A DNA stretch of 64,000 nucleotides from Medicago truncatula. Taxonomy: Eukaryota; Streptophyta; Magnoliopsida; Fabales; Fabaceae. The position numbers and the translations under genes are program-made. Numbering within the stretch: position 1 is the first letter of the stretch; each line of letters opens with the position of its first letter. This document shows, one piece after another, positions 18,896 to 46,980 of the stretch. Location of the stretch: positions 29,818,755-29,882,754 of the forward strand of contig NC_053048.1 in NCBI RefSeq assembly GCF_003473485.1, written 5' to 3'. A model generated the notes under the pieces. That model was given only the letters and a program-made list of their open reading frames with translations. It was not told the origin of the DNA and made no database searches.

Positions 18896-19081
18896 ATTTA
18901 TAAAGCTCATCATCTCCCTATACACATTAAATAGATTTTAGCGCTGATGGAGATGTAAAATACCTTCTTAAAGTTAGAATAATTATTAAATGTCTCTTGA
19001 ATACGTCAAAGTGTTATGTTTTATTTTAAGACTACTTAGTAAGGAGTCCACATAAAAACACTTTTTATTAAATATATTTTT

Positions 19082-19160
19082 TTTTTTTGAATGGTTGGAT
19101 TTTGAACTCCAAACCTTACATATATTATGCATTATTCTTACCAACAGAATTAACCTCATT
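19082..19160 (-). mobile_element. SINE fragment
   Basis: Reverse strand shows GCATAATATATGTAAGG, then a B-box-like GGAGTTCAAAATCC and an A-run, matching the 3' two-thirds of the SINE at 57487-57576. The A-box end is degraded. Confidence 0.45.
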
Positions 19161-26524: not shown

Positions 26525-27062
26525 CAGTTGTTTTTCTTAGCCTACGTAGCTCAAAAGGTAGACAGAACTGAAGCAGTTTGCTCTAGCGATAAGAGTTATA
26601 CTATATCGGGTCACCTAGTAACCTCTCAACTCAACTGGCATTCGGTTTGGGTCTTTTATCCATACGATCACATATATGTCAATTAATGTAAAAAATATTA
26701 TGATGATATTAATTCACAAATAAATGTGTTGTCGCATCTTTAATTCATTATTCATATAACTATTTTTTTTTCTTTCAATCATATATTATTATTGTGTCTC
26801 TTTTTGGATCATTCCCTCTCTATTACGAAAGGTTAAAGATAAATAAAATGATAAATTTTGATGATCTTCATGATTATCATAAGAGATCTTTATAAAGGTT
26901 AAATAATATTTTGAGTGGAAAGGAAAATTTATTGATATCATCAGCTTATATGTCTAAATTACACATGTCTTGTATGGGATTTTAAATCAGTCTTATAAAA
27001 TTACAAATTCAAGTTCTAATCTCTGAGCTCACACTACTTAGACAATAAATATATTTTTGAAT

Positions 27063-27097
<35 letters not shown>

Positions 27098-27347
27098 GCG
27101 GAAAGGATGATTTATTAATAATAATGGCATGAATGTCCATATTACAACTGTCTTAGGTGAAATTTAAATTTTGTCCTTTAATGTTACAAATTCAAGCTCT
27201 AACATTTGAGCTCACACCTCTTGCACAATAAAAAAAAAATATTGATTGGAGACATTTAACACTAATTGAAATTTTATAAATGGCCTCTTGAACCTCATAA
27301 GAGCTAAAATCTATTTAATTGATGTTATCAAAGAAGAATATTTTATT
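26525..27347 (+). promoter_or_regulatory. Upstream region of NCR gene A, shared with genes B and C
   Basis: About 26755-27395 is homologous to about 32960-33314 and 36655-37075. It contains CTCTT (26798-26802) and AAAGAT (26835-26840), the two motifs long reported in nodulin promoters; both are too short to prove function. A (TA)n run lies at 27066-27094. Confidence 0.45.
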
Positions 27348-27354
27348 TATAAAG
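27348..27354 (+). promoter_or_regulatory. TATA box of NCR gene A
   Basis: TATAAAG, 48 bp before the ATG at 27396; the same heptamer precedes genes B and C. Confidence 0.65.
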
Positions 27355-27395
27355 AGATAAAAAACTTCTATTAATCACATGTGAAGGAGGAAAAC

Positions 27396-27655
27396 ATGAC
27401 TCAAATTATCATGTCAGTTTATGATTTCATCATCTTTGTTTCTCTATTTCTTGTTGTAACCAATCCTGGTATGTCATTTTTTACACCCTTTTCAAATTTA
27501 TCTTTTACACAATATTATGTTACGTAATTGTATAATTCCTTTTTTTCTTTTTTGAAAATGCAGAAAATTCTTGTGTTACTAACGATGATTGTCCAGAGGC
27601 GGTTTTCTTTGTAACTTTTAGATGCATTAAAAATATTTGTGTACGCATTAGATAG
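27396..27655 (+). CDS. NCR peptide A, four cysteines, two exons
   Basis: Exon 1 is 27396-27468 and exon 2 is 27564-27655; donor G|GTATGTC, acceptor AAAATGCAG, intron 95 nt, phase 1. The product has 54 residues. Exon 1 encodes a 24-residue late-nodulin (PF07127-type) signal peptide, MTQIIMSVYDFIIFVSLF and on. The mature peptide starts near ENSCVTNDDCPEA and has C-x5-C-x10-C-x4-C, the classic NCR spacing. Its net charge is about zero. Class role: nodule-specific secreted peptide acting on bacteroids. It is the first of a five-gene cluster of the same design (27.4-45.6 kb). Confidence rests on signal peptide, splice sites and cysteine pattern agreeing. Confidence 0.92.
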
Positions 27656-27965
27656 CAATAAACATATTGTTAGAGTTCAGTACCTTGAAGTTTATTTTCT
27701 TAATATACTTATGTTTCATAAAATTTATGACAAAATGTTTATTTTCTTACCATTTCAAATTTAGTAAATAATATCTTTTAAACATTACCATGTTTATGAG
27801 TTAGGATTCTCAACTATTATTAAAAAAAAATAGAGAAGCCTATCACTATAGTGTTAGTGTATTGATTATCGATATAGCAATTGTACTAAATCGTTATTGT
27901 GTAGTATAATTTATAAGTTTGTCATCATAAGAATTGTAAAATTTCTACTCAGCCAATATGATTAT

Positions 27966-28345
27966 GGGTAAATACTTCTTTTCGTCTCTGTAATATTAGT
28001 GAATTCCGGTTTTAGTCCCTATAAAAAAAAAAGATTTAGATTTTGTCCCTATAATTTCATATTCTTCCATTTTTTGTCCCTCATTCCACCACGTAAGCAG
28101 AATCTGCATACATGACACGTAAAATGAGGGACCAAAAGTGAAGGAATTTGAAATTACAAGGACCAAAAGTGGGAGGAATCTAAAATTACAAGGACGTAGT
28201 TTATGCAGATTCTGTTGACTTGATGAAAGGAGGGACCAAAGGTGGAAGAATATGAAATTACAGGGACAAAATCTAAATCTTTTTTTTTTCAGGGACTAAA
28301 ATCAGAATTCACTAATATTACAGGGACGAAAAGAGGTATTTACCC
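27966..28345. mobile_element. Mutator-like fold-back MITE, perfect 9-bp TSD
   Basis: GGGTAAATACTTCTTTTCGT and reversed GGGTAAATACCTCTTTTCGT are the ends; arms extend through most of the element. TATGATTAT is duplicated exactly at 27957-27965 and 28346-28354. Noncoding. Confidence 0.85.
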
Positions 28346-28354
28346 TATGATTAT

Positions 28355-31310
28355 AATTCAGATGTTTTAATTGTGCGGTTGCACTTAGCAATGATTGGTT
28401 CACTTTAACGAAGTAAAAACAATTAAAAGGGAGATTAGGTCATGTTTGACTTCCTTCTCTTTGGCAACTTGGTAATCGGGTCCAAGGCCTACAATTGTTT
28501 ACTTAGTTTCACGGGGATCTAACAAAAGAGCTAAACCCAATGTTTTGGTACTTAATTCGATTCTTCTATAACAACCCATTAATATTTTAGATGAGTCTGT
28601 GGCCATTGATAGTTTCACCGTGCGTTAAAACTCTTGTGATAAAGACGGTAATAGAATATATCTAAAGTTATTGTAGATTGAACAATTAATATTAGGTCAC
28701 ACATCAAAAGCTAGGGCTAGTAGCCATTCAAGACCTAGATAGATTTATTGACATTCTTAAATGCATAAAAATCATCGAGAACATATATTAACTAAATAAA
28801 ACTAAGTAACTCAATTGTCTTTAAAGGTACTCAACAATTACATGGTTCAAGCAACTACAAAAAAGGTCATCTACATGACCTAACCTATAAAACTAGCTAC
28901 ACATGACAACTTAAGATAAACAACATATGTAAAAACATACATGAATAAGGGATCACCGTTTGATGATTACATGCCTCTGAGATGTTTATGTCGCTCAATG
29001 CCTTCCAAAATCGTGTTTTTCCGCTTTTAGATCGTTAAAAACTGTTTTTTCACTGAAATATGGTGTTCCTATTTATAGCTTTGTGTTCCCCTCAATTTAT
29101 GGAAAAATTTGTGCAATCGTAAATCTACCAGTGGAGAAGCACGTCTGTATTTATCTCTGTTGAGCGACGAATCTCAAAGCGTATATCTCGCATGTTCCAA
29201 CATAGACTCCCTTTTTTTTCTTCATTCCTTGTTTAATTTATCCTCACTGAAACATCTAGAGTTATTATACACCAATAGAGTTCTTGATATATCCTCTATA
29301 CAATATAACACGACTAAATAGTTGTCTGGTTTGGGTGATTTATCATGGTTTCAATGTCTTGAATGCTAACCACTCCTTCCATGATCCCTCCCTCGATTTG
29401 ATAGAATACTCACCTAAATCATATAGACACAAACTAACATGACGTTAAAATAACTCCTAATAATTGTTAAGTATATGATATGGCATGCCATCTTTACAGC
29501 CCCACACCTTAATTGTTGCTTGTCCTCAAACAATATACTTGTAAAATAAAACTCTAGTAAAATAACAAAACTCATTGGATGATAAAAATTCCAAAAGTGT
29601 TTACCTCATCAAGTAATGGAGCCAACAATTTATGTTGCATTCTCCTGATCAAAATACTCAAGATCTCCAAAATTCAATCTAGTACATCCAACAAAATCAC
29701 CACACACATAATAGCTAAAACATAATTTTTTTCTCAACCTCACTCGTCCACGAAATCATTGAAAAATGGTAATCACTCTGCCGACACATGCATTCCACTT
29801 AATCATACAACTTGAAGACATTCAAAACTCAAATTTAAGTTGTTACAAAACACACACTTTTGGAGGACTTTATAGGTTATAACTTGACTTAGGTAAATGG
29901 TGGATAAATTTGAGAAAGTAAGTTAAAATTGGAGTTAGATATCCACTACATATTATTCTATACAACAAACCAATAGTTACTAAGCGATTTTGAAAATCAA
30001 AATTTGTAGAAATATAACTTTTTTTATAAAATAAGTCTCGAAATAGCCATGTCAATATACTACATATATCTTCATCAATACATAATCTCAAAAATCTCCA
30101 ACATACATAAAAATATAACATCAAAGACTGACCCCATAAAAAGATAACATCAAAAACTTTCTTGTCTTTTATTTAGTTGTTTTATTTATGTTCACTGCTA
30201 ACACGATGTTCTAAACATCTCATTCAACAACTGTTATATGTACCTGGTGTTGGAACATCGCATAGAACATTATGTTGCTAGTGCGCCAGAATTTCAAAAC
30301 ATAATTCACATGATTTGGATGTCATATCACCCTAACATAATAATCAATGTATCAACACTCAACAATTATCATGTTTCTAACACCAATTATAAGTTATCAA
30401 ATCAAGAAAACTCATTCCCATAAAGTTCGTCTCAGTTTATGAAAATTAGCATTTTTCGATTATTCCTTCAAAATCAAAGTAAACAAGTTCAAACGCCTCA
30501 ACCAAGTATATACACAGTTCACATAGAGCGCAGTAGCATATACATAAACGTTTCATAGGCCAATTCCGATAAATTCTGAAATTTTGCAAAGTTCGTATCG
30601 TTTTGTCATTTTACCAAAGAATTCCAATTTTCAAAGTAAAACCAAGTTTAAGTTCATGATTACCATCCAAAACATTTTTATAAGTCATAACTACAGTAGA
30701 AAACCTAGTCCTACCCTTTTACCTTGAGAAAACGAGTATTCGGAAAAATTATGTGTTCTTGACATTTTTCACAATGTTTGATACGATTTCACAAAACCAA
30801 GTTCAATCTAACTTATTTGATGTTTCCAAAGGTTTAGAAATCTTAAATACAGTTAAGTACATCAAAAGAATCAATTTAGCACAGCCGGAATCGACCCCAA
30901 GTGCCAGGAACAACCCAAAACATGGGTGGCTGCTCTGTGTAACTCGCCACAATGAGTTACACCATAACAGGTCACACTGTTTTGGTTGTTCCCTCTCGGG
31001 AACTTCCAATTTTTCACCTAAAATCCCCATTTTTGATCCCCTTGATCCCAAATCCGACCCCAAAACTTGTACATTAGTTTATAAACATCAAAAGACATTC
31101 AAAATAACAACAAACATAGAATCATAACACCAATTCACCTTAAATTCATCATCTAGTTCATTTTCACGAAAAAACAACATTTTTCTCATTTTCATTCAAA
31201 CTTCATAAACAACCACACCAATTCAGATGTTGCTTCTTCTTGTCTCGCTTCTCTAATGTGCCCTTATGTCAATTTTATAGATTTCATCTTCTTTCATTCC
31301 TATACGAGCT
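28355..31310. other. Intergenic, no host gene seen
   Basis: AT-rich. About 28680-29020 resembles 19690-20060. About 30237-30300 shares a phrase (CTGGTGTTGGAACATC) with 38168-38230. The frames at 29109, 29870, 30238 and 30753 show no domain or signal. Confidence 0.4.
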
Positions 31311-31319
31311 TATGCACAT

Positions 31320-31690
31320 ATGCTATAAGTTGTATATTCATTATTAAACCACATAGCTATGTCCCTGAGATTCACATCGATTAGGGCTTTAACAGATGCC
31401 AGAAAAGGTCTCCCAAGTAAGAGCTTTGTCTCCTATTTATCTTCAATCTCTAAAATGAGGAAATAAACTTTAAACTTAAGACGATCCACTTGTGAAATTC
31501 CACCTTTAACTTTACCATGCGGTTTCACAGAAAATATGTCTGCTAAGCCAACAACTATGTAGGTATGCTTCTCCATAAGACCAGACATTTTCTTGAATGT
31601 TGATAAAATCATAACATTAATACTTAAACTTATATCACACAAAGCTTCTTCTATATAAATTTCCCTTATCCATATCATTACAAAAGATCT
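31320..31690 (-). mobile_element. Ty3/gypsy fossil, aspartic protease region
   Basis: Reverse-strand text around the family's protease signature (IEEALCDISLSINVM, then LLGRPFLASVKALI) identifies a gypsy pol remnant. It is short, broken, and has no LTR beside it that I can pair; looks old. Confidence 0.6.
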
Positions 31691-31699
31691 TGAATCTAT

Positions 31700-32955
31700 G
31701 TTCAGATTATTACCTCTTATAGAGCAATATCATTGTAGTCGAACCCAAAATGGTGTATCAAGAGCGTTGCACGAACATCAACATCTATACTCAGTCTACA
31801 TAAATAAAGTCCTTTCATTCATAAAGCTAATTGGGTCAAATGCAAGATTAGGGAGATAATGTAAGGTTTTTCAGAGTTAGGGGATTAGTGATTTAAAAAA
31901 TTTGAATGGTGTTTCAACACAAGGGTTAATTTTATAAAACTACTTGTGCACATTGTAACTTGCATGTTTCATAATTCCACTTAAACATATCTTATCTTAT
32001 GGGGTATCGTTTTCATAAAAAATACATTATATCTTATGGTGTACCAAGTTTCTCAAATTCATGCAAGTGTGAAGTACGATCGCACCGCCAATGCATACAT
32101 AAGTCCTACTTATTTAATTCAATTTGTCGTCAATTTGTTTGTATGTGTATGACCTTGTAGGTTCTCGTCACATTGATAGTAATATTAAATTACACATTTA
32201 ATATTATTAACAATGAGAAGTATATAAAGAAACATCATTGTTATCCAAGTGACAAGAATGTCATGTGGTCTGAAAAAATATTTATGTGATAATTATCATG
32301 TGTATAATTACCTTTTTTCTTCATGACTATATGGAACAAAAGACATCGGTAGTGTTACCTTTGTCCAAATAAATATTTGGCCCCATATATAGTACTCCTA
32401 TTATGTTATAGGGGAAAAATTAAATCTAGGTTACTCATGCCCGGCAACATAATTCAGGGAGTGCCTTCAACCGACTTTATAATTATTATTTTACATACAT
32501 AATGTTTAAACAACAAAAAAACACTCAAATTTACAACTAGTGATCGTAGTGACTTTAGGTCAAAGTATGTCATACAACACTATCATTATGATAATATCTT
32601 ATGACATTTTATATGACACTATGTATTATTCTCATGGTGGTCATTCTAGTATAAATATTATTCATATTGTTAATACCAACATGAGGATTTTGATATCTCA
32701 TATCCATTAACTATGAGATATGACCATAAGTTTACTCGGTTAATAGTCTATGTTCATTAATGGTATTTCACTTCATAGTAAAGCTTGACTACGAATACTT
32801 GAAGTATAACGTCCATATAATTAATGGGGTCTCAAGATTAAATCACCTAATGCCCAGTTAATCAGACTAACTATTTTAGAGATTGTTTTTTTACTTTGAA
32901 TAAATGTAGTAAATAAATAAATTTTTGAAGTTTAAACATAAAATTATTGGCCTCT
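31700..32955. other. Intergenic, nothing recognised
   Basis: AT-rich, no gene or clear repeat ends seen. Confidence 0.4.
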
Positions 32956-33265
32956 AAGGCTTGCATCAACATCATTATTATTTTGTCTATTTTGTAATTT
33001 TTCCATATCTATTACAAGAGGTTAAAATATAAATAGAAAATGTATAATGAATTTTATCAAAAAAATAATGTACTTTGATGATCATCAAGATTTTTATGTG
33101 AGATTTTTAATAAGGTCGAATGATCCATTGAGTAAGCTAAAGAGGTTACACAAAATATATTGATTAGAGATATTCAACATTAATTTTAAATTTATAAATA
33201 ACTTCTTGAAACTCCTAAAGATTAAATACTGTTTAAATAAAGTTAATAAAGAATAAAATTTTAAT

Positions 33266-33272
33266 TATAAAG
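33266..33272 (+). promoter_or_regulatory. TATA box of NCR gene B
   Basis: TATAAAG, 49 bp before the ATG at 33315, inside an upstream region homologous to those of genes A and C. Confidence 0.6.
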
Positions 33273-33314
33273 CGATCAATAAGATTCTATTAATTACAAG
33301 CAAAAAAGGAAAAT

Positions 33315-33573
33315 ATGGCTCAAATTCTCATTTTTGTTTATGCTTTCATCATCCTTTTTTCTCTATTTGTTTTTTTTACCAGTGGCGGTATGTCATTTTT
33401 TAAACCATTTTAAATTTTCAAATTTAATTATCTTATACGCAATATTATATCACCTTAAATAATAATCTTTTTTCTTATTTTAAAATGCAGCTATTCCCTG
33501 CGGTACTCGTGATGATTGCCCAAAGACCACTACATATATGTGCTTTAATAACATTTGTGTACTCCTTAGATAA
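33315..33573 (+). CDS. NCR peptide B, four cysteines, two exons
   Basis: Exon 1 is 33315-33387, exon 2 is 33491-33573; donor G|GTATGTC, acceptor AAAATGCAG, intron 103 nt, phase 1. The product has 51 residues: a 24-residue signal peptide (MAQILIFVYAFIILFSLF and on) and a short mature peptide containing CGTRDDCPKTTTYMC. Cysteine spacing is C-x5-C-x7-C-x4-C; the middle loop is three residues shorter than in genes A, C, D and E. Net charge is about +1. Same class role as gene A. The upstream region aligns with genes A and C, so promoter and gene were duplicated together. Confidence 0.92.
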
Positions 33574-34875
33574 TGTATATTATTTAGATATTTATATATA
33601 AATTAGTTAATCATGGTTTTTAAATTTATGACTTAATTTGGTAGAATTTGTTACCAACGTATTACCAAATAAGATTTGTTACCAACATGTGCCAAATAAG
33701 ACTTCTTCCTAATTATTGGTTACTTTTAATTTGAGTTTCTTTTTGTTATTAGTTGTTTTATTGAGCTGTACTCTTTAATGTAGATATCCAAAATTTTCTT
33801 GTCTTTTGAGCTTTGGCCTAATCCAACCAATATATCTTTTGTAATTTGTTATTTTAATTATTAAATAAATTTAGGAAAATGCTGGTTCTCGCAACTAAAT
33901 TTAGGAACATACGTGGCTTACTAACACTTGCTGCCATGTCTCGAAACTTGTTTACTTATATGATATCTTTTTTTTTTTTTAAGGATACTTATATGATATC
34001 TGTCATTAGAATTATGAAAGAATTTAAACTTAAAAGACATAAGCTTTTAATAAAGAGGATTACATCAAAACATATACTATTTATATCATAGTCAAAGGTG
34101 TAAAAAAATAGTTGTACAAATATCATTTCTCTTTCAAAATATACATTAATTGATTGTCCAAATAATACAACAATCCTTGTCATGCATGCTACACTGATTT
34201 CTCCATCATACGCTGGAAACGTTAATGTGATTAAAGCTTAATTGGTTAGTTATATAATAACTATATAATCTTCCTATTTCAAATATACTTTTACCTATCA
34301 CCCCATGTATAGCTTAATGTGTCGCACATAACAATAAATCTATTCTATTCTCTAACCTCTTGTGTTTCACACAGTTATAGCTAATAGAATGAAATTATAT
34401 TTTTATAGACTGTGTGATTGAAAACCTAGCTTATAAATGGTTGTTTAATGTTGGAAGATAGAATACACCCAGTTGATCCCCAATTAAGAATACACCCACT
34501 TAATTACAATAGCTGCCACTTCTTTCATCGCAATTTCGTTTGAAGCTATCTTCATGATTTCATCTAAAGAGAATGGGAAGATTTTTCACTTTCAATCACA
34601 TTAATTCTTCCATGATAGGTACACCAAAACCATTGTTGATGTATATACAAGAACGAGATCTAGGTTATTCCATTTTTTTTTATCTTTCTTTTAAGGCTAT
34701 AAATTTGTGCATCAATATCATCCAATGTGTTTCTTCCTTGCAAATGACTTTGACGCTTCAGATCTTCATTTTGCACGCAAATGTTGCTACCTAAGATGGT
34801 GCATGGGGAGTGTTACTATTGGTTACCTCCATAAGCCATTATCACTGAGAGTACTTTTGGTCCAACCTCAAATTT

Positions 34876-35154
34876 CAAGGATGAGTTAGGCCTCCAATTT
34901 TAATATGGTATCAGAGCCTGTCGATTTCAAAAGCCACCTACCGATTCACGTATTGGGAAAAACTCATGTCCCAAGCCCAAAGAGTAATGCTGGGCGTGCG
35001 GCCAATTCACGCACCAAAGCCCAAAGAGTGTTGGGCGTGACGGGGGTGTATTGGGAAAAACCCATGTCCCACATCGGATAGATAAGACTCTTGATAAGAG
35101 TTTATATAGAGGAAGTAATCTCCACCTGATGAATCGGTTTTTAAGGACGAGTTA
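34876..35154 (+). mobile_element. TRIM-type LTR element fossil, copy 1
   Basis: Partial left LTR end, primer-binding-type TGGTATCAGAGCC (34905-34917), internal part with GCCCAAAGAGTGTTGGGCGTG, and a right LTR starting TGTATTGGGAAAAACCC at 35047. Noncoding LTR kin; left LTR mostly missing and the copy is diverged, older than the copy at 41066-41396. Confidence 0.7.
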
Positions 35155-35480
35155 TGTTGGAACAAAATGTGTTTAACATTAACCCTTAAGAGTTTTGATG
35201 ATAACAAGGTATTAAAAATTGTCAATTGGATATGCTAATATTATAGACAAAAAATTGACATCAAAGCTAAAAATCACCAAAAGACCTCACTTAGTTATGA
35301 TATTACTTAAATTCACATAAATTCTAAGTGTTCATAAAAGTTGTTTTGGTAGTAAGATCGGGAGTAAAGTTCACAAAGTTAGAGAAACTTGTGTTGAGAT
35401 TAGATTTGGATAGCTATCATATACTTTTTATGCTTCAGATATAACTCCACTTATCCCTCAACATACACCTCCACTCCTAT
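35155..35480 (+). mobile_element. LTR retrotransposon fossil, LTR start (copia-like)
   Basis: Begins TGTTGGAACAAAATGTG directly at the end of the TRIM copy, then a phrase (GAGTTTTGATGATAACAAGG) common in plant copia LTRs. Truncated; right boundary uncertain. Confidence 0.4.
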
Positions 35481-35789
35481 ACGACGCGAGATTCATTGAA
35501 CCAATTGACTTCTCAGGCTCAGTGGCAAAATAGCTTATTATTTCAACGACATACACTCGGAATTACTCATGAAATAGACCTAACCATTTTTTTCAGAGTT
35601 ATAGCACCTATACATGACTTAAACCATATCTTTTAGATAATAAGATAATTCCTTGCTCATACTACATCAAAAGTTTGGTTGTGGAATGCTCGTCGGAAAA
35701 AACATTCAGAATAGAGTTAAACCAAATATTACATTGAAAGTATAAATCATATACAACAATCAGGAGTACTACATAGAATCCTAGCTATT

Positions 35790-36240
35790 TACATGTAATC
35801 CAAACGTACACTAGTTTAGTTACCCATGGAGAGCATAACTAACAAGAGACGGTTGATTATTGATGTTGGAGAAACATCAACAAGCTTGAATCCAATTTAT
35901 AGTTACAAGTGATAACTCAAAATCTTGATTACACAACCTATTTATAACGTAAGTTCGCTAGGCGAGCACCGAATCTTTCTTTAATGGAGGGAAAAGCGAA
36001 CTATCTTCTGATAATTTCTAAAATCGCCTTAGTTCGCCTAGCAAACCAACTTTGACAAATCTTCCTGGAACTCACTATTTTGGCTCACTTTCACTTCAAT
36101 GCAGTTCGCCTAGCGAATCAGGTTTTTTTTTCAAATGCCTTTGAAATGATCTGGATTTGCTTTCAACGAGTGTACTTGCATCATATTGCTCCGTTCCAAT
36201 CTAATCATGTCCAAAATCTAAAAAAGGTGTGAGAAATAGA
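35790..36240 (-). mobile_element. LTR-like fossil
   Basis: Reverse strand shows repeated GCTAGGCGAAC motifs, a TATA-like GTTATAAATAGG and a pyrimidine-rich leader, as in plant LTRs. No partner LTR was found, so a solo LTR is possible. Family not decided. Confidence 0.35.
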
Positions 36241-36654
36241 ACGTAATAACTTTTTGGCATAATTTGTAATGTAAAATATATGTACATAGAATAAGGGATT
36301 TTTACATTAGATTACTTACAAAACAAGTCGCTATAGAAAATAACTTTATTTTGGCACTTATAAATATCATAAGCAAGTGTCTCTTCGATTCGAAATGGAT
36401 GGAGACTCCCCAAATAATTGGATTAGCCCCACAATTTGAGGATGACTCGACGACACATGACCTAATCTTAAAGGTAATGCTTATAGATGTTGAATGGAAT
36501 CGTTGAAAAGTGTTAGGTCTTCTAGAATACATGCGACATTTATTTCAGGGATGATGTTACATTGTTTAAATTTTGTCAAATAAATAAAAAAATCATGCTG
36601 TGGTGCTTTTAGTTTATAATAAATACGTTTTTACCTCTTCAATGATTTTTTTAA
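36241..36654. other. Intergenic, nothing recognised
   Basis: AT-rich sequence; the minus-strand frame at 36302-36532 has no family resemblance. Confidence 0.35.
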
Positions 36655-37030
36655 GGATCCTCAATGAATTATTATTTATACAACTAACTTTCTTCATAAT
36701 TCATTATGGTTGTGTCTCTTTTGGTTTTTTTTTTTCCTGATTTATGATGAAAGAACAAATGATAAATAAAAAATATAGAATGAAGTTCAATACAAATAAA
36801 TAATCAACTTTGATAATCATTTAAAAAATTATGTGAGATTTTACTAAAGTTAATCAATCAATTGAATGAACTAAAGGGGTAAAAACCACATATTAATCTA
36901 AGGCATTTAACATTAGTGCTAATTTTATAAATGGCTTCTTGAAACTCTAAAGGTTAAAAACTATTTAATTGAAGTGAACAAAGCATTCAGGAAATTTTTA
37001 CTTTTCTTTTTAGGGAAGGAAATTTCTACT

Positions 37031-37037
37031 TATAAAG
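37031..37037 (+). promoter_or_regulatory. TATA box of NCR gene C
   Basis: TATAAAG, 45 bp before the ATG at 37076; CTCTT occurs further upstream near 36715. Confidence 0.6.
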
Positions 37038-37075
37038 CCAAAAAAAAATTCTATTTATTACATGGAGATGAAAAT

Positions 37076-37345
37076 ATGACTCAAATTCTCAAGTTTATTT
37101 ACACTTTAATCATCTTTCTTTCTCTATTTCTTGTTGAAACCAACAGTGGTATGTCATCTTTCACACCATTTTCAATTTTTCAAATTTATCTTACATACAA
37201 TATTAATCAACTTTTAAAAATATATTATTTTTTCTTATCTGGCAATACAGCTCCGAAACCATGTGTTACTGTTAAGGATTGTCCCAAGACGGTTTTTCCT
37301 ATAGGTTATAAGTGCATTAAAAATCTTTGTATACTGGTTATATAA
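37076..37345 (+). CDS. NCR peptide C, four cysteines, cationic, two exons
   Basis: Exon 1 is 37076-37148, exon 2 is 37251-37345; donor G|GTATGTC, acceptor CAATACAG, intron 102 nt, phase 1. The product has 55 residues: a 24-residue signal peptide (MTQILKFIYTLIIFLSLF and on) and a mature part with PCVTVKDCPKTVF and C-x5-C-x10-C-x4-C. The mature part has five lysines and one aspartate, so it is the most basic of the cluster; cationic NCRs such as NCR247 are known to be antimicrobial in vitro. The intron is a multiple of three and open in frame, so an unspliced transcript would still code through. The upstream in-frame ATG at 36974 precedes the TATA box and is not the start. Confidence 0.92.
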   Translation: MTQILKFIYTLIIFLSLFLVETNSGMSSFTPFSIFQIYLTYNINQLLKIYYFFLSGNTAPKPCVTVKDCPKTVFPIGYKCIKNLCILVI

Positions 37346-37525
37346 TTATAATGTAACAATATACTTTTTTTTTGTTACTGTAACAATATACATATGATGT
37401 ATGCTATTTTGATCTTTAATATATTAATAATACATAAATGTTAAGATTAAATATTTCTTTTATCAATATTCAATTAAAACCTAGTAGATAGTGTTTTTTA
37501 AGAAACGTCATTTTGATGGTGACAA

Positions 37526-37692
37526 CTAGGGTACCCATGGAAGAATGGTGGATAATTTACCCCAACCAATACACATTAGCCACATAAACACATTTTTAAG
37601 TGGTATCCATGAACTATCTTGACCCCACCAACAAATTGCTCATTTTCATTGGTTGGTGGGTAAATTACCCACTATTCTTCAAAGGTAATCTA
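37526..37692. mobile_element. Small MITE with about 45-bp inverted ends
   Basis: CTAGGGTACCCATGGAAGAA and reversed CTAGATTACCTTTGAAGAAT start arms that match on through GGTAATTTACCC and CAACCAAT. Located 180 bp after NCR gene C. Confidence 0.65.
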
Positions 37693-38805
37693 GAAAAAAT
37701 CTATTTTGATGAGTTAAGAATCATATTTGAATTGCCAAATTTGAATTGCCATTTTCCCTCCCTTAAAGCCATAATAAATTCGACCCTCCATTCAATGCTC
37801 ATATTTTAATCTTCTCCCAATACACAATTAATGCAAGGCAACGAGGATATTGGCTCTCTCTATATAGTGGCCAAACGCACCTCTTAGTCTTTGCCATTCT
37901 CATACAAACCTTTTGTCCTTTCAATGAGCTGTAGCATCATGAACAATTCCATTTTGTTTGGATGTGATGTGTGCTGCCATAACTATATGATTTCCTTCCA
38001 CTTGAGTGCTAGATACAATTTGAATGGTATATGAAGAACATGTTTTTGTTGGCGTGCAATGCAATTTTGTGGGTTGATTATATTTGATCCTTTATGTATA
38101 ACGGTGAGAATTTCGTGGGTTGATTTTAAACATTTTGATGAGTATTGTCCACATTATCCGTGTTTGTGCGTCTGGTGTTGGAACATCACATTGAACATTT
38201 TAAAGCTAATGTGCTTGAATTTCAGCGTATAAATAAACACTTTAAGGAACAATAATAACTTTGATAGTAAACATAAGTTTAAAATGTACACATATAAAGT
38301 AGTATAAGCTAGAGTGAGGAACAATAAAATCGTAATAAGGTGCAAAACATAGAGGGGATCAGATCATAAAAGATAAAAATAATAAGTTAGGATCACAACC
38401 AAGTATAGTGTAGGTGGTCCTAAAAATAAAAGAAAAAGCTATAAAACTGTTTTTCTCTAACAAAAAAGTGGCTCTGAGTTTTACCATGTAGAAACAGACA
38501 CCAAGTGACTAAGAAAAAAAATTCTCACCTAGTTTATATGAAATAACTGTGCCATTTTAGTCGTGTGTTTAGTGTGTTTTTAAAATATAAATTCTCAAGT
38601 GTACCCTGAGAACAAAGCCTTTAAAATATAAATTTTGAATTTTTCTTGAAAAAAGTACTTATGCTAAATTGTGCTGCTAGTCTTGATTGTTTTTATTGCT
38701 TGAGCACAAGCAAAGATTCAAACATGGGGAAATTTGATAAGTAATAATTTAGTGTGTTTTTAGCATTTGAATTCAATAATATGTGTGGAGCTTTGGTGTT
38801 ATTTA
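37693..38805. other. Intergenic, no gene supported
   Basis: AT-rich. A TATA-like CTATATAGTGG near 37860 precedes only a 31-codon frame (37938). Part of 38168-38230 repeats 30237-30300. Confidence 0.35.
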
Positions 38806-38809
38806 TAGC

Positions 38810-39400
38810 TATTTTACTACAAAATATTAGTTTTAATTTTTAAGACAAATAATGAAGAAAAGGAAGAATTTTTAAGACCAGGAAACTGAGCACGACCTTG
38901 TGCATGTGCAGAGAAATTAAAGAAGATAGGTGCGCCCTTCAAGCAGAACTGTGCGCCTTCTGAACACAGGAATCTGAAAAGTTGTAAAAGAACATGACTT
39001 GGAGCATGACCCCTAAGCACGATCGTGCGTCATGTGCAGTCAGAAAATGGTTGTTACAAACTTTTCCAAATCTATATTTTAAAGATTGTAAATCTAATTT
39101 AATATCTTGTCTGTGGTTTTAGAGTTTAGACTATAAATAGGCCCCATATCAGATTTTAAAAGTATATTGGAACACTTGTATTCTTACTCTAAAGTTTAAA
39201 GCAAAGTTTTTCAATGTTCTAAGTTTCTAGTTCTTATTTTTCTGAGCTTTATATTTATCTTTACATTTCTGCTCTTTATATTCTTGCTTTTTAAATTTCA
39301 AGTTGTTTATTTTCATGCCTTTTAATTTCATTTCTTTACATTTTAACCCCTTGTCTACTGTGATCATGAGTTAGTAGCTCTTCTTGTCTCGGGATTGCGA
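38810..39400 (+). mobile_element. LTR-like fossil, probably gypsy
   Basis: Features of a plant gypsy LTR: inverted GCACGATCGTGCG-type motif, CTATAAATAGGCCCC (about 39131), a T-rich leader with TCTTTACATTT repeats and CATGAGTTAGTAGCTC. No partner LTR seen; looks like a solo LTR or truncated copy. Boundaries approximate. Confidence 0.45.
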
Positions 39401-40320
39401 GAATAATCAAATAATTTGATCCATATACAAACCCAATGCTAGACTCTATTATATATGAAATTGTTTTCTAATCTATTCTCATCGTTTTTAAATTTGATAT
39501 CTAATATTAAATGAAGAACCGAAAAGTGAAGTTTAATATTGATATTGAATCAAATTTTATATATTAAACAAAAAAAACGAGATGTCAAGTTTGATATTGG
39601 AATAAATTAGACAAATCTCTCAAAAAATCTACAAAGATAGGTTTGACTGCTTTTGGGATAATAAGGTTGTGCTCAATGGGTCTTAGTTCTACCATGAGAA
39701 TAAACTTCATTATTGTTAAGATGCGTTCATGTATTCGGAGAGGAAACATAATATATCAATTGAATGTCTTGTCCTTAGAACTATTTCATTATTGAATAGA
39801 GAAATAGATAGGAAATGTAATGGATTAAACATTAAGATGAAAATTTCAATCCCACGACTTTTTTTTATATCTAAATTTCAAACCAAACAAACTTATTCCT
39901 TTTCAACTAATCAAAATAGAGAAATAGATTGGTAATCACATAAACACCATGTGGATTGAAACACTTTTTATTATTCAATAAAATCGTACAATTTCGGAAA
40001 CCTATCCGTGTTGCATTTGGAAGAAGGTAAATTAGGGGTGTTTACCTAATTAGAATATCAAATGTGCTTTGTGATGCATGTGACATTGTTGTTAGCGATA
40101 TATCCTATGAGGAATCCAAGATATGAATACTTCCATACTATGATAATACACTTTTGAACTCATAATAAAAATTGAATGGATAGAGAAACATAAATCAAAT
40201 TTTGAAGTAATTATAAAAATACTATCAGTATGGTCTACACATAACATTATATACTTTGAGGTAACATAATTACTTTTAAACTTAATTGTTTTTAAACTTA
40301 TTTTTTCAAGTGTAACCAAA
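39401..40320. other. Intergenic, nothing recognised
   Basis: AT-rich; the frames at 39729 and 40092 show no domain or signal. Confidence 0.35.
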
Positions 40321-40325
40321 AACCC

Positions 40326-40594
40326 TTAGTTATACAACTTAAGCTTACAAAAATTATTAATGCACTTATGAATTATGGGTAAAATCTTTGGTGGACAATC
40401 AGCATCTGTAGCACAGGGAATGCGATCTGCATTGTCAAATAAGAAAAATAAATTTTTTAATGAAATGAGATATAATATAGTTTATAAGATAAATTAGTAA
40501 ATGTTGGGAAAAATTACATACCACCATTTATTAGAATAAAAAATAGAGAAAGAAATAAAATCAAAGCATAAACAAACTTCAGAATTTGAGCCAT
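40326..40594 (-). CDS. NCR peptide D, four cysteines, two exons
   Basis: Exon 1 is 40594-40522, exon 2 is 40426-40326; donor G|GTATGTA, acceptor CAATGCAG, intron 95 nt, phase 1. The product has 57 residues: a 24-residue signal peptide (MAQILKFVYALILFLSLF and on) and a mature peptide beginning DRIPCATDADCPPK. Spacing is C-x5-C-x10-C-x4-C with a short basic tail (KLKLYN); net charge about +2. Same class role as gene A. First of two genes on the minus strand; it converges with gene C, so the cluster includes an inversion or inverted duplication. Confidence 0.92.
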
Positions 40595-40637
40595 AAATTT
40601 CCTCCTTTGCATTTAGTAAATAGAATTTTTTCGATCT

Positions 40638-40644
40638 ATTTATA
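40638..40644 (-). promoter_or_regulatory. TATA box of NCR gene D
   Basis: TATAAAT on the reverse strand, 44 bp before the ATG at 40594. Confidence 0.6.
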
Positions 40645-40859
40645 AGTTCAAAAAAATTTCTTTGTAAACTTCAATCAGATAGTTGTTAGCACTTAGAAAT
40701 TACAAGAAGACATTTATAAAGTTAAAATTAATGTTAAATGTCTCGAATCAATTACCCTTTAGTGCACTCCATTGATCAATTAACCTTAGTAATGAAATAA
40801 ATTTGTTGTATAAATTTATTAGGAAATTTGTTGTATAAATAATGTATAATAAATTTATA

Positions 40860-41060
40860 AATTAAAGGGTTAAATACGCTTTTTGTCTATTTAAATATAA
40901 AAACTTTCAATTTTAGTTTCTCTAAAATTGTATTTCAATTTATGATCCCTCTAAATTTTATGGTTTCAATTTTAAAAACTTTATTTTTACAAAAGTTCAT
41001 ATTTCGTGTTCCAAATAGATTTTTTTTACAACATATAATTGGCAAGACATAAATATTATT
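40860..41060. repeat. Half fold-back MITE
   Basis: TTAAAGGGTTAAATACGCTTTTTGT and the following T-rich 'TTTCAATTTTAG' blocks resemble one arm of a fold-back MITE; the opposite arm may be at about 41570-41700 (GGACTAAAAATT). Not resolved. Confidence 0.3.
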
Positions 41061-41065
41061 AGGTT

Positions 41066-41396
41066 TATATTGGGAAAAATCCAAGTCCCACAACGGATAG
41101 ATAAGACTCTTGAGAAGAGTATATAAAGATGAGGCAATCCTCACCTTACAAGCCGGTTTTGTAAGGATGAGTTAGGCCCCAAATTTCAACATGGTATCAG
41201 AGCTTGTCGAATTCAAGGGCCGCCTAAACCTATTCACGCACCAAGCCCAAAGAGTGTTGGGCGTGAGGGGGTGTATTGGGAAAATCCAAGTCCCACAACA
41301 TATAGATAAGACTCTTGATAAGAGTATATAAAGAGGAGGCAATCATCAACTTACAAGCCGGTTTTGTAAGGATGAGTTAGACCCCAAATTTCAACA
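41066..41396 (+). mobile_element. TRIM-type LTR element, both LTRs present
   Basis: Left LTR about 41066-41188 and right LTR 41272-41396 (about 125 bp each) are nearly identical (CAAGTCCCACAAC, GACTCTTGA, AAGAGTATATAAAGA, CTTACAAGCCGGTTTTGTAA). The primer-binding-type TGGTATCAGAGC follows the left LTR at 41189, and GCGTGAGGGGG precedes the right LTR. The internal part is about 80 bp and codes for nothing, as is normal for TRIMs. High LTR similarity suggests a younger insertion than 34876-35154. Confidence 0.85.
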
Positions 41397-41399
41397 AAT

Positions 41400-42040
41400 A
41401 ATGTAACTATTTAATCTTTAAAACTTATTGATTTATTATCTATAAATTCATGTTGAAGATTAACTTATTAAATTTAAGATTAAAAGTTAAATTATTGAAT
41501 TATTGTTATTTTATCGTCTTATCAAAGATATGTCATAAGAAAAAATTTGTTGTAAACATGAAACATGAACTTTTAATTTGTAAAAAACGAGGGACTAATA
41601 TTAAAAATAGAAAATTTACAAGGACCGAAAAATCGAAGAAACTTTTTGAGGTACTAAAACAAAAAATTGGTAAATTTATATGGACTAAAAATTTTAAGTC
41701 CTTTTCAATGCTTGGGCATCGCTTAATGGTTTGTTTTAGCACACCTTGTGCTAGAGGAGTTTCTTTTGGTGTTAATATATATTCCATTTTTGATTGTTCA
41801 AAAAAAAAAAATATTTAAAACCTAAAATAAATGTACCATAAAATGATTTCTTGACAATTTTTTTTTAAAATATAATATATTTATAGGAAAATCAAGTCTC
41901 ACATATCTTAAAGATAATGTGGGCCTAAAGTTTATCTTAAAGATAATCTGGACCTAAAGTTTAAAGAGAGAGGCACTCCTCACCAAAAGGATGATTTAAG
42001 CTAAATATAAAAACTCAACATGGTGAGTACAAACCATATG
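41400..42040. other. Intergenic, no gene supported
   Basis: AT-rich; the plus frame at 41450-41818 is Lys/Asn-rich low complexity. A tandem phrase (AAGATAATGTGGGCCTAAAG) repeats near 41910 and 41940. Confidence 0.35.
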
Positions 42041-42054
42041 CTCAAATATGTGAT

Positions 42055-42141
42055 GTTTTTTTAGTGGTATCCAGGGTTCGAATCTCGGGCCTTGAATACA
42101 TAATGCATTGTCCTTATCAACTGAGCTAAGCTCACGGAACG
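42055..42141 (-). mobile_element. tRNA-derived SINE, 13-bp TSD
   Basis: Reverse strand: CCGTGAGCTTAGCTCAGTTG (A box), AGATTCGAACCCTGG (B box), short A tail. TCAAATATGTGAT is duplicated exactly at 42042-42054 and 42142-42154. Confidence 0.9.
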
Positions 42142-42939
42142 TCAAATATGTGATCTAACAAAGAACAACCATGTTAGAAATTGTAACACCATCCAATCAA
42201 AATTAAAATAAAATTGAAACGCCATTAAATTACGCATCTAGGAATATAATAATATAACATTGTTCCCTGTATAGAAAATTTAGAGCAAACTCTAGAATCA
42301 AGTGGAAAAGTCTCATCGCAATATATAAAATAATATTAACAGTACAATACTAGGATTGAGTTACATGTAAACGAACTCATCAGTTCTGCAAAATAGGAAA
42401 TGCATAACTACCCAATAGTAGCTAAGAATTTTAAGATATTTTCTAGGACTAATCATATTTTCTTCTATCACATTGAATAATGATATAAACTTCTATCATG
42501 AAAAACAAATGATCATGGTGGGATGCAATTATATCTCAATGGTCTCCCAAAAGAGGAAATAAAAAACAAACATCTTTTGTGACCGCGGAGTTAACAATTC
42601 ATTCCTATTAGAAAATTAAATGTGAGAATTCTAATGATCTAAACCTAAAACAGAAAGCATTGGCATAACGACTGGGACACATTTCTTTGACACCAGGACT
42701 TGTCATTGAACATTAACTACATTGGTTTGATTGATAATTGATTAACTCTGTGGGTGGATATCATTTGGGATTTTTTTTTTTGGTAGTGTTACAATGTAAC
42801 GAGACAAAAGAAAAAGAAAAAAGAGAGTAAGCGCCGAAATTAAGTTCCAAGCTTATCTTTCATATCATCTGAGATTTACCATTGCCTATTATCATCTAAC
42901 ATTTACCACGGAAATCAAGTAAATTATCATATCCTAATT
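42142..42939. other. Intergenic, nothing recognised
   Basis: No gene or repeat ends seen. Confidence 0.35.
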
Positions 42940-44040
42940 CCACAAAAAAGGCTTACCCTTTTTTTCTTCCACCAATAGTTTGAATCTTAAGTCAACTGTC
43001 ATGACCATATCCACTAAAACCCTAGCAAATCGGTGTTCCTACCCCACTTGCAATGCCAAATGTACTTGCGAAAAGTATGATTGTTCCCACACCCCCACCG
43101 GTGTTGTTCAAGTGGGCGGTGATATTTTTTGTGCTATGTCAAAAATTACGCTTTTCCTTGAAGCCAACCTTTCCTTTTATACTAATAGGAACAACCTTGC
43201 TTAAACCGCCCGACAATTATTATTCGCCCATGTGCGAGGCACACGGTTTCCCTAAGTCATCAAAGGATCTCCCTCATTTATGACGACGAGGGTATAGAAC
43301 TATATATCATATGATGGTCCAGCAAACAATATTTTTGGCCTCCAATACTCTTGAAGGAGGCAATAAATCTTCACCCAAACTTGAGCTGAATTATTGTTTT
43401 TCAAGCTAGGGTTAAAATGAACCGAGGCAAAAAGTTTCACCATACATGGGTTCAAACTCCATGGACCAATAGATCTAACCTTCTAAGCATCTTCAAGAGT
43501 TGAAAAAGAGAACTCGTATAACCCATTCTCTAAAGAAGTGACACCCCTCTTCCGAGATCTTTCTAGTGTACCTTTAGCTTTTCACGCAAGGTATCAACCT
43601 TCAAAGGAGGTGACCCTTTTGGCTAAACAACTCTTCCATGCAAGTTGTGTTTGCATGTTTCTACTCCAACTAATTAGTATTCATCTTATGGGATAGTTAT
43701 TGAGAAACGTTCGCCTTTAACCACCGATTGTCGAAGCTAACTCAGGAACATCACAAACTGAATTACACGCTTGTGCGAACGTACGTTGAGGTTTTGGTGT
43801 AGGCTTTTTTGGTACAATTGTTGTAGGTTTTGGGATAGATGTGGATGAGTCTAGGCATAACAAAGGAATTGATCGTTGAGAAGCCTTCCATGGTAAAGAT
43901 GACGGTGGGTTAGGTTTATAAAGACTATAAGATCAACAAGGTTGTTCACGGGAGTCGCATAATCAAATGATTTATATAACTCTAATAATTCAATCTGGTT
44001 TACCAAGGGCAAAAACACTTGATGTTTGTTTACACAAGAA
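42940..44040 (-). mobile_element. LINE ORF1-like (DUF4283) fragment, broken
   Basis: Reverse-strand segments match plant LINE-associated DUF4283 proteins: GLYEFSFSTLEDARKV, SIGPWSLNPCMVKLF, AQVWVKIYCLLQEYWRPK and ILFAGPS (about 43530-43310), then, in another frame, RFARVLVDMVMT and LRFKLLVEEKKG (about 43050-42960). At least two frame changes and internal stops separate the parts. The zinc knuckle and ORF2 were not found. The cysteine-rich plus-strand frame at 42980-43204 is antisense to this. Confidence 0.75.
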
Positions 44041-44078
44041 TACGACCAGAAGCAAAAAGTACCATGGAATTTTTTTTA

Positions 44079-44443
44079 GGCTAAAATATGGTTTTGGTCC
44101 CTGCAAATATGCCTCGTTTTGGTTTTAGTCCCTGCAAAAAAAATTTGTTGTTTTTGGTCCCTGCAAATATGTCTCATTTTGGTTTTGGTCCCTGGCTCCA
44201 CTTTTGTGATAATTTGCACACGTGTCACATGATGACTTAACCATTTATTAGAGAAATAGTCCCTGCAAAATCTTTTGATTTTGAAAAAGGTCCCTGCAAA
44301 ATATTTTGTTTTTGGAAATAGTCCCTGCAGGGACTATTTCCAAAAAAAAAATATTTTGCAGGGACCAAAAACAACAAAAAAAATTTGCAGGGACTAAAAC
44401 CAAAACGAGACATATTTGCAGGGACCAAAACCATATTTTAGCC
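44079..44443. mobile_element. Mutator-like fold-back MITE, perfect 9-bp TSD
   Basis: GGCTAAAATATGGTTTTGGT with its exact reversed copy at the right end; arms with repeated GGTCCCTGCAAA run through most of the element. TTTTTTTTA is duplicated at 44070-44078 and 44444-44452. A common legume repeat type. Confidence 0.85.
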
Positions 44444-44452
44444 TTTTTTTTA

Positions 44453-44570
44453 TCTACTCGCTCAAACATTCATGAGAGATAAAGTTGTGTTTCCCTAGCA
44501 TACCAATTCATTTTAAATGGAAAATTAAATGGATATGGGTGAAACACCCATATATAATAACAAGATATTA

Positions 44571-44606
<36 letters not shown>

Positions 44607-45342
44607 TTGATAAAGTTGGTTATTACTACACTTTATATAAAATTCAAGAGCATTACTCTCCCCATTCAAAATGATTGATTATAAGTTTAACGTCGTTGTC
44701 TTGTCAAATGTAGAGTAGAGATCATCATCATTTCTTAAAAAGATTATCAATACGTCTATTTTGTGTATAAATGTCCAATTAATATCCCCCGTTTTGAATA
44801 TTTATATATGTATATGCTTTATACACTCTAAAAATGTATTAAAATGTCTATCCATTTCTTTTATTGTATGTTTAGAATCCTAACTCTCAATATGTATGGC
44901 AGTTCTTGAAGAACGTTATCTACCAGTTCTCAAATAGTGACAAATGAAATTTCTTGTCTTTTTTTTTTTTTTTGAGCAGAAGAAAATTCTTGTCTTAAAT
45001 TTTATGCATTATAAACATATTAACGATCTTTTGAAGAAATAATTAGAGTGTAGATGCATCACAATGAAAATTGACTTCCCGACAAAAGTTGATTCTCCAA
45101 ATTTGTCTCTTATCAATTGTAGCACCATAATAATTTATTCATAAATATAATACAAAAAATATAAAAATACAACAAAGAGTTTGGGCAACTGCCTCGTTAA
45201 AAACCTTATCGGCTAAACCAAGTGGGAAAAAAGAGTGCAGTTTTATAACATAACAAGCAAACAACAATTAGAAAACCATAATTAACTAATTTATATATTG
45301 CAAATTTAAATAACATATATCATATGTATATTGTTACATTAT
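44453..45342. other. Intergenic, no gene supported
   Basis: AT-rich, with a (TA)n run at 44575-44602 and a phrase near 45190 (ACTGCCTCGTTAAAAACCTT) that recalls a widespread plant repeat motif. Confidence 0.35.
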
Positions 45343-45593
45343 CTAACGAATGAGGACACAAACCTTATACATACACTTATAATATTCAGGTGGAACTGCC
45401 ACAGGACAATCTGCGGTAGTCTCGCAGGGAATTGCTACATTGTAAAATAAAAAAGGAAATATTACAAAAAGGTGATACAATAAATTTGAGAATTAAAAAA
45501 TGCTATGAAAAATAACATACAGCCATTGATTACAACAAGAAATTGAGAAAGCAATACGATGAAAGAAAAAACAAACACCAGTATTCGAGCCAT
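45343..45593 (-). CDS. NCR peptide E, four cysteines, two exons
   Basis: Exon 1 is 45593-45521, exon 2 is 45434-45343; donor T|GTATGTT, acceptor CAATGTAG, intron 86 nt, phase 1. The product has 54 residues: a 24-residue signal peptide (MARILVFVFSFIVLLSQF and on) and a mature part with SIPCETTADCPVAVPP, spacing C-x5-C-x10-C-x4-C, net charge about zero. Same class role as gene A. Exon 1 ends on T instead of the G used by genes A-D, changing the junction residue to serine. Last gene of the cluster. Confidence 0.92.
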
Positions 45594-45640
45594 TATTTTT
45601 CTCCCTAGCATGTAATAAATAGAATATTTTTACCACGTAT

Positions 45641-45647
45641 TTTTATA
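45641..45647 (-). promoter_or_regulatory. TATA box of NCR gene E
   Basis: TATAAAA on the reverse strand, 48 bp before the ATG at 45593. Confidence 0.6.
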
Positions 45648-45659
45648 CGTAAATTTTTC

Positions 45660-46980
45660 ACTTTGTCTCTAATTAATATTTCATTTGTAGTTTTTAGTTG
45701 ACTCAATTAACCCCATATCCTTTGGAAAAACGATCATCAAAGTTCTTTGTTTTTTTAATAAAATTAAATATTTTTTTATTTATCTTTTAGCTTTTCGTAA
45801 TAGATAGAGGAAAACACAAAAGACACAACAATAATAAATACAAAAAACAAAATATCACTTGTATAATAAATGAATCAAGAGGTAACAACATATTTATTAA
45901 TAAATTAAAAATACATATGATAATTTTCATTTGAAAAAAATTAATTTAAAATTATTACATACCTGTAATGGTATGGAGCTAAACTGCCCAAGTCGAATAG
46001 AAGTTAAGTTGAAAGGCATTGAATCCACAGTGCATGTGTAAACTAGACCTGAATACACAACCTTCCCACTATTTTAACATGTTTTAAAGAAATGTCTTTC
46101 TTAGGAGGGAAAAACATAGATAACTTATATACTTCATTAAATATTTGGGACAAAATGTTTACAATCAAAATAAACTTGTAGACATGATCCAGATTCGACT
46201 CAAGACAATGAAGGGTTAATGAACCACTTATATACTCTTCGGTCTTCCAATATACAATATTATATATAAAAACATCACCCCAAATATAAATTGAGTATAA
46301 AATTTTAATATAGTAGAGTTTAAATAAAAAGTTAGAAGTTTCTAGTAGCCATGCATGTTGGTGTGCTAAGCATGAAAAATCATCTCTACAAAATTATCCA
46401 TTACCTTCAGAGATTCAAATAAGATATATTATATTAACCTTTATCCTCAATGTCTAGGCCACTAAGCGTTTAAACTCAGCGACTTCAATATATACATACA
46501 AGGGCCTTTATGGTGCAGTCAAAAAACTGACTTTTTTAAAAAAGTTATTTTGTTTAGCCAATAGTATAACTGCCGATGTTATGTCAGCTAGTGTCATGTT
46601 GGGGGACCACTCTAAAACTAAACTTTATCCTATTACAAATCAGTCATCGTACAAAATATTAAGGGAAATTTCAGTCTTAGTGCACAAATGAGAATCAATG
46701 TTTATTTTGATTTAATCAGGGACACAATTGAAATAAGTAAATATATAATGACATATCTTATGGACAAATGCGCAATACACCATATAATATGACGTGACAT
46801 GAATTAAATACACAGATGTTCAATGATTGACCATTTAACTTCACCAGAAAAGTCATTCTCATGACTTCGCCATAGAATTTTCCATACAAATAATATGTCA
46901 TTTGATATAGACTACCATTTCAAATAGGCAACTTATTTTGATAAGTCTGAATATAATTAGGTAAGTAAGCCGTTGAAATT
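45660..46980. other. Intergenic, nothing recognised
   Basis: AT-rich DNA without a supported gene. Confidence 0.35.

Follow-up and report, generated by a model that had tools for sequence, protein, structure and literature searches.

Six genes of the NCR peptide family with NCR-type promoters on contig 7 of Medicago truncatula

A 64,000-nt stretch of the Medicago truncatula genome (the window; 29.82-29.88 Mb of contig 7, C7, assembly position = 29818755 + window position - 1) raises the question of whether several short, interrupted reading frames within it are genes for secreted peptides of the NCR (nodule-specific cysteine-rich) family, through which legumes of this kind control the nitrogen-fixing bacteria of their root nodules, and how they came to lie together. 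An original prediction from the sequence had named five two-exon genes of the four-cysteine type. We conclude with great confidence that the window harbors six intact NCR-family genes, each with an NCR-type promoter, five of them encoding four-cysteine (group A) peptides and one a six-cysteine (group B) peptide. The six are ordinary members of a very large known family.

The five predicted genes, N1 to N5, were re-modelled by script from the window DNA, and start, stop and strand agreed in all five cases. The predicted count was one short, as a DNA profile of the five genes revealed a sixth, N0, with six cysteines (nhmmer E 6.9e-24). The gene models are listed with the isoelectric point (pI) of the mature part and the score against the Pfam family Nodulin_late (PF07127).

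27396-27655, plus strand: N1; exon 1 27396-27468, intron 27469-27563 (95 nt), exon 2 27564-27655; 54 amino acids, four cysteines, mature pI 6.3, PF07127 53.7 bits
33315-33573, plus strand: N2; exon 1 33315-33387, intron 33388-33490 (103 nt), exon 2 33491-33573; 51 amino acids, four cysteines, mature pI 7.9, PF07127 54.2 bits
37076-37345, plus strand: N3; exon 1 37076-37148, intron 37149-37250 (102 nt, open in frame), exon 2 37251-37345; 55 amino acids, four cysteines, mature pI 9.1, PF07127 72.6 bits
40326-40594, minus strand: N4; exon 1 40594-40522, intron 40521-40427 (95 nt), exon 2 40426-40326; 57 amino acids, four cysteines, mature pI 8.5, PF07127 82.2 bits
45343-45593, minus strand: N5; exon 1 45593-45521, intron 45520-45435 (86 nt), exon 2 45434-45343; 54 amino acids, four cysteines, mature pI 5.9, PF07127 56.4 bits
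18543-18843, minus strand: N0; exon 1 18843-18768 (76 nt), phase-1 intron 18767-18671 (97 nt), exon 2 18670-18543; 67 amino acids, six cysteines, mature pI 5.0, PF07127 53.1 bits

The 73-nt exon 1 described for the five genes was recovered in each of them, as were the introns, predicted to measure 86-103 nt and found at 95, 103, 102, 95, and 86 nt in N1 to N5, all in phase 1. Their donors read GTATGT; the introns end in CAG in four genes and in TAG in N5. The cysteine spacing C-x5-C-x7/10-C-x4-C was also reproduced, with a middle spacing of x10 in N1, N3, N4, and N5 and x7 in N2. A single splice solution exists for N2; the other four genes contain one or two alternative frame-keeping AG sites, but splicing at any of these would remove one or two of the four cysteines. 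The six gene models examined showed no lesion. Only N3 appears among the open reading frames (ORFs) of at least 80 amino acids (36974-37345), because its 102-nt intron is open in frame; the statement that ORF-length filters miss four of the five genes therefore holds. The length of the N3 intron is also divisible by three, and a transcript that retained it would encode a protein of 89 amino acids. These two-exon genes are a further example of what plain ORF filters overlook, the problem for which tools such as SPADA were written (PMC3924332).

The cysteine pattern of N0 is C-x5-C-x4-C-x7-C-x14-C-x1-C. Among 12 listed open splice combinations, the one with donor GTAAGT and acceptor TTTTTTACAG was chosen; the only other listed combination keeping all six cysteines uses the poorer donor GTCATT (78 amino acids). 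The signal region of N0 scored 18.5 bits (E 0.0012) with the five-gene signal-peptide profile, which reached 7.9-15.1 bits in 20 Markov-resampled windows; this score is cited from the profile without N0 because a profile built with N0 would be circular for that gene. Leave-one-out signal-peptide models recovered every held-out gene among N1 to N5 with 29.6-43.0 bits. No further NCR gene was found by the DNA profile in the window and 100 kb on each side, a search that very diverged NCRs could escape; the only other match in that range was a displaced piece of the N1 promoter (26785-26917). The nearest Nodulin_late match beyond the group, among the matches listed, lies at C7:30201395.

The predicted NCR identity, based on a late-nodulin signal and four cysteines, was strongly supported by Pfam and by published NCR promoter motifs, and weakly by a structural match. 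All six proteins exceeded the curated Nodulin_late cut-off (53.1-82.2 bits versus 30.4), and both exons of N3 were matched in a whole-genome scan. The genome (429.9 Mb, 42 contigs) contains at least 159 Nodulin_late matches, a count for which 150 of 1198 candidates were scored. Two exons and a phase-1 intron, the NCR gene structure given in PMC12461094, were present in six of six predicted models, and the number of cysteines that separates group A (four) from group B (six) was four in N1 to N5 and six in N0. As in group A NCRs of M. truncatula, whose structure is described in the same paper, the intron lies just before the first cysteine, exon 1 encodes a predicted signal peptide, the cysteines follow C-x5-C...C-x4-C, and the promoter motifs follow the order 2-1-4-5-3. 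No difference from this group was found for N1 to N4, whereas N5 is without motifs 4 and 5. N0 shares with group B its six cysteines and its grouping with six-cysteine genes, and nothing was found in this protein of 67 amino acids that sets it apart from them. Strong Nodulin_late matches in a single intronless open frame of 57-72 amino acids were observed at four loci on contigs C7 and C5 (L002, L004, L005, and L008); intronless NCRs are known in red clover, according to PMC12461094.

A PDB search with the five-gene profile returned 7ckd as top match (E 0.0015, over the mature part). 7CKD is a structure of NCR169 (PMC8110993), the product of DNF7, for which 7CKE is also available; NCR169 likewise has four cysteines and the same promoter motif order, but the sequence match is weak, and NCR169 is essential, of which there is no sign for N0 to N5. 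The individual genes are likely to be annotated already, because 678 NCR genes are listed for A17 Mt5.0 in PMC8862580. A search for their names with the six cysteine-core strings gave no match in the full-text literature, supplementary tables not covered. NCR genes are described as often clustered and as carrying few large-effect single-nucleotide polymorphisms (PMC5369179). The value of the six as a discovery is small, since the family has several hundred members in the species and they look typical.

Five motifs of 41-50 bp have been reported by Nallu and others upstream of NCR genes and not of the other genes examined there (PMC3613412). The consensus strings printed in Table 2 of that paper were used to scan 264 kb; the best score in one shuffled copy of this DNA served as threshold, and sites were counted within 600 nt upstream of the genes. 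The five best motif 4 sites of the 264 kb precede N0, N4, N2, N1, and N3 on the sense strand (37.7-23.9 bits; shuffled best 10.9). The four best motif 5 sites, also on the sense strand, precede N1, N4, N3, and N2, and five of the six best motif 2 sites precede N5, N2, N1, N0, and N3. Motif 1 ranked first before N3 and second before N0. Motif 3 was weaker: sites before N4, N3, N2, and N1, 14-19 nt from the ATG, ranked first, third, seventh, and eighth. All five motifs exceeded the threshold in N3, four in N1 and N2, and three in N0 and N4, and two or more motifs occurred in none of 2000 random 600-nt stretches of the flanks. The motifs present in each promoter keep the order 2-1-4-5-3, which PMC9946822 gives for the NCR169 promoter. 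The promoters were mapped as follows.

26810-27379, plus strand: N1 promoter; motif 2 26810-26850, motif 4 27246-27286, motif 5 27288-27328, motif 3 27330-27379; motif 1 under threshold
32999-33297, plus strand: N2 promoter; motif 2 32999-33039, motif 4 33164-33204, motif 5 33206-33246, motif 3 33248-33297; motif 1 under threshold
36732-37062, plus strand: N3 promoter; all five motifs in the order 2-1-4-5-3 at 36732-36772, 36861-36901, 36897-36937, 36938-36978, 37013-37062
40613-40747, minus strand: N4 promoter; motif 4 40747-40707, motif 5 40705-40665, motif 3 40662-40613; motifs 1 and 2 under threshold
45594-45813, minus strand: N5 promoter; motif 2 45813-45773; no motif 3 over threshold
18959-19293, minus strand: N0 promoter; motif 2 19293-19253, motif 1 19221-19181, motif 4 18999-18959; motif 5 (18957-18917) in place, under threshold; no motif 3

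These motifs bear on the tissue in which the genes act. Membership in the Pfam family alone leaves the tissue unfixed, and the genes could be defensin-like ones that share this domain but function elsewhere than in nodules, in seed, flower or root defence. According to section 6 of PMC3613412, the five motifs were missing from the upstream DNA of 88 defensin-like genes without nodule expression and of 33,131 further genes; here they are present, and we regard a role outside nodules as exceedingly improbable.

Some points weigh against the assignment to intact NCR genes with NCR-type promoters. Exon 1 is hydrophobic, of the late-nodulin type and matched by both PF07127 and the leave-one-out models, but its signal peptide is a prediction. 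The next PDB match is an unrelated lectin at E 0.0022 over profile positions 13-37 (end of the signal and first two cysteines); because this match, taken as chance, follows so closely, the PDB match alone is weak. The motifs over threshold are unevenly distributed (motif 1 in two of six genes, motif 2 in five, motif 3 in four, motif 4 in five, and motif 5 in four), and N5 has one clear motif. Motifs 1, 2, 3, and 4 also exceed the threshold at sites away from the six genes, such as 145548 and 57264 for motif 3, 48551 for motif 1, and 124971 for motif 4. Expression of the six genes in nodules is presumed from analogy with the family. Finally, the support from intactness has a limit. In a simulation of neutral decay, splice sites, frame and cysteines of the five genes remained intact in 8.2% of copies at 0.10 and in 0.5% at 0.20 substitutions per site, whereas N1 to N5 are all intact, which favors the assignment; the simulation, however, assumes independent genes, which they are not.

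NCR-like motif 1 and 2 sites over the shuffled maximum were also seen at 48551-48591, 15699-15739, and 21286-21326, all on the minus strand, with no NCR gene found beside them; they are possibly remnants. The N1 promoter contains about 270 nt of extra DNA as compared to N2, located between motif 2 and the remaining motifs. In one search for a known mobile element, this DNA gave 11 partial matches elsewhere, all to query positions 192-309 and of 72-84%, and one inverted piece within itself.

Divergence among the genes was analyzed next to their intactness. Strong divergence had been predicted for the mature parts, with exon 1 and the DNA upstream remaining similar. The largest divergence does lie in exon 2 (mean p-distance among N1 to N5 0.371, as compared to 0.318 for the 150 nt upstream), but exon 1 (0.247) is no better kept than the intron (0.250). 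Exon 1 was thus not seen to be more strongly conserved than non-coding DNA, with the caution that the intron is AT-rich and was compared over aligned columns only. Exon 2 is also raised at synonymous sites (pS 0.512 versus 0.255). Nei-Gojobori dN/dS among N1 to N5 was 0.94 for exon 1 (bootstrap 0.44-1.88) and 0.51 for exon 2 (0.27-0.97), or 0.76 without the cysteines (0.47-1.38). With 15 genes, the five and 10 relatives, the values were 0.78 for exon 1, 0.59 for exon 2, and 0.90 for exon 2 without cysteines; five of 15 relatives not of the N0 type (L036, L037, L044, L048, and L049) had been excluded because the ends or loops of their models are longer or unusual. Positive selection on the mature peptides is unsupported at an exon 2 dN/dS of 0.51, a value from five genes with about 30 codons and high dS. 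For pea NCRs, PMC9515463 describes near-neutral mature parts and signal parts under purifying selection. The exon 2 values obtained here do not contradict this; purifying selection on the signal was not seen in exon 1, where sites are few.

The same figures bear on whether the genes are relics, that is, recently silenced NCR copies which are no longer transcribed and whose frames are open merely through youth. The loss of about 96 nt from the N5 promoter, the roughly 270 nt of extra DNA in that of N1, and repeats near N2 to N4 with a motif that we take to be retrotransposon-like would fit such silencing. Yet N1 to N5 are intact although pairs of them differ by 0.19-0.29 (exon 1) and 0.31-0.44 (exon 2), a divergence at which most copies free of constraint would have been disrupted; furthermore, the dN/dS of exon 2 with its bootstrap range and the three or more promoter motifs kept in five of the six genes speak against silencing, which we consider very improbable.

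As intact NCR genes, the six would, by analogy with the family, be transcribed in infected nodule cells (PMC4168050; as described also in PMC9515463). The signal peptide encoded by exon 1 would direct secretion and then be cleaved; the oxidised, disulfide-linked exon 2 peptide would be delivered to the symbiosome, where it may act on the bacteroid and affect bacteroid differentiation. The mature part of N1 to N5, with the cut placed by hand at residue 24, had a computed pI of 6.3, 7.9, 9.1, 8.5, and 5.9, respectively, and that of N0 a pI of 5.0. By the limits given in PMC9515463 (cationic >8.5, anionic <6.5), where another pI program was used, N3 counts as cationic, N4 as borderline, and N2 as neutral, while N1, N5, and N0 are anionic. 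Judged by charge, N3 and perhaps N4 may belong to the membrane-active type that drives differentiation, and N1, N5, and N0 to the weakly acidic type, to which a modulating rather than a killing role is ascribed.

The origin of the group was examined by genome searches with the DNA of each gene. The five genes had been taken as a local cluster. That they form a self-contained local family is not shown: the best genomic matches of N2, N3, N4, and N5 lie outside the window, although a single clade of N1 to N5 was not rejected by the approximately unbiased (AU) test (p 0.082). The best match was outside the window for five of the six genes, N0 included, and for N2 (311 bits), N3 (213), N4 (270), and N5 (125) it was on another chromosome, C1. 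A tree was built from the six window genes and 17 non-redundant relatives, a biased sample picked from the top matches; 11 of its 20 inner branches remained open. All 17 relatives, from elsewhere in the genome, give an open two-exon NCR model when the best-scoring splice pair is chosen by script. N0 groups with six-cysteine genes at C7:11.47 Mb (98/97) and C8:20.38 Mb (100/100), and N4 stands on the unresolved backbone. Four-cysteine NCR genes at C1:35.83-35.88, C7:14.12 and 14.31, C7:39.50, C4:30.5, and C2:29.96 Mb share about 66-77% DNA identity with the window genes over promoter and gene and have open two-exon models; they differ from N1 to N5 in the mature loops and C-terminal tails.

The alternative that the five genes are a tandem family formed locally, with N0 as a more distant neighbour, concerns the origin and is compatible with the NCR assignment. 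N1 finds its best genomic match in N2 (248 bits), N1 and N3 are the mutually closest rows of the alignment (73.3%), and N1, N2, N3, and N5 fall into one weakly supported group, though together with three outside genes (92/95); as a clade of their own these four were not rejected either (AU p 0.211). Against it stand the matches on C1, the mixed orientation of the genes, and the number of label changes in the tree, which was 5 for the six window genes as compared to a shuffle mean of 5.4, with 242 of 500 shuffles as low. An origin in place is a possibility, but a doubtful one. Homology among the window genes is confined to about -690 to +380 of the ATG, save for a 49-nt piece at +565 and AT-rich matches at about +1000, both in N5; one comparison was limited to pieces shifted by <400 nt, another had no such limit. 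Hence, the copied segment comprised little beyond promoter and gene, unless homology in older flanks has been lost by decay. The probable source of the genes is ancient duplication of a unit of about 1 kb (promoter and gene) whose copies are dispersed in the genome.

In N5, motif 2 lies about 96 nt nearer to the ATG than in N2. By alignment, the missing DNA (junction near 45663) comprises most of motif 4 and all of motif 5; a motif 4 call at 45789-45749 (12.8 bits) was taken as spurious, as it overlaps the motif 2 site. According to PMC9946822, an NCR169 promoter without a 37-bp motif-4-like sequence complements poorly, and AHL factors bind this sequence. Because N5 has lost the corresponding region, it is predicted to be expressed weakly or regulated otherwise. 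Such loss is not confined to N5: motif 4 exceeds the threshold in 14 and motif 5 in 13 of 17 relatives, and a single relative has neither; for seven of the 17, the upstream DNA available to the scan was <400 nt. N5 beside four relatives with motifs 4 and 5 offers a natural test of whether this region is needed for NCR expression in the plant. It is conceivable, but in our judgment unlikely, that the group was assembled by repeated insertion of promoter-plus-gene units of about 1 kb from elsewhere and that N5 is in addition a promoter-deletion allele free of AHL control via motif 4. If both were true, neighbouring homologous NCR genes would now follow different regulators.

Additional features of the window were recorded.

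First 10 kb: repeats spaced about 5.3-5.5 kb
6407-6892, plus strand: open frame with a match of 74.9 bits to Pfam RVT_3 (reverse transcriptase-like), probably a transposon remnant
9936-11552, plus strand: two adjoining frames that jointly cover Pfam DUF674 (positions 2-213 and 214-444), either two exons or a broken gene
22434-22712 and 24627-24986, minus strand: two related frames for short proteins that are hydrophobic near the N terminus and have a glycine-rich tail with GAC as its last residues; the two share an 89% repeat (family D5); no Pfam family above its cut-off for either
49614-49916, minus strand: open frame of 101 amino acids with start MGNFCS and a tail rich in glycine and cysteine, a possible candidate for N-myristoylation
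34877-35172 (near N2 and N3) and 41073-41396 (near N4): repeats of families D4 and D17 containing TGGTATCAGAGC, which we take to resemble a retrotransposon primer-binding site

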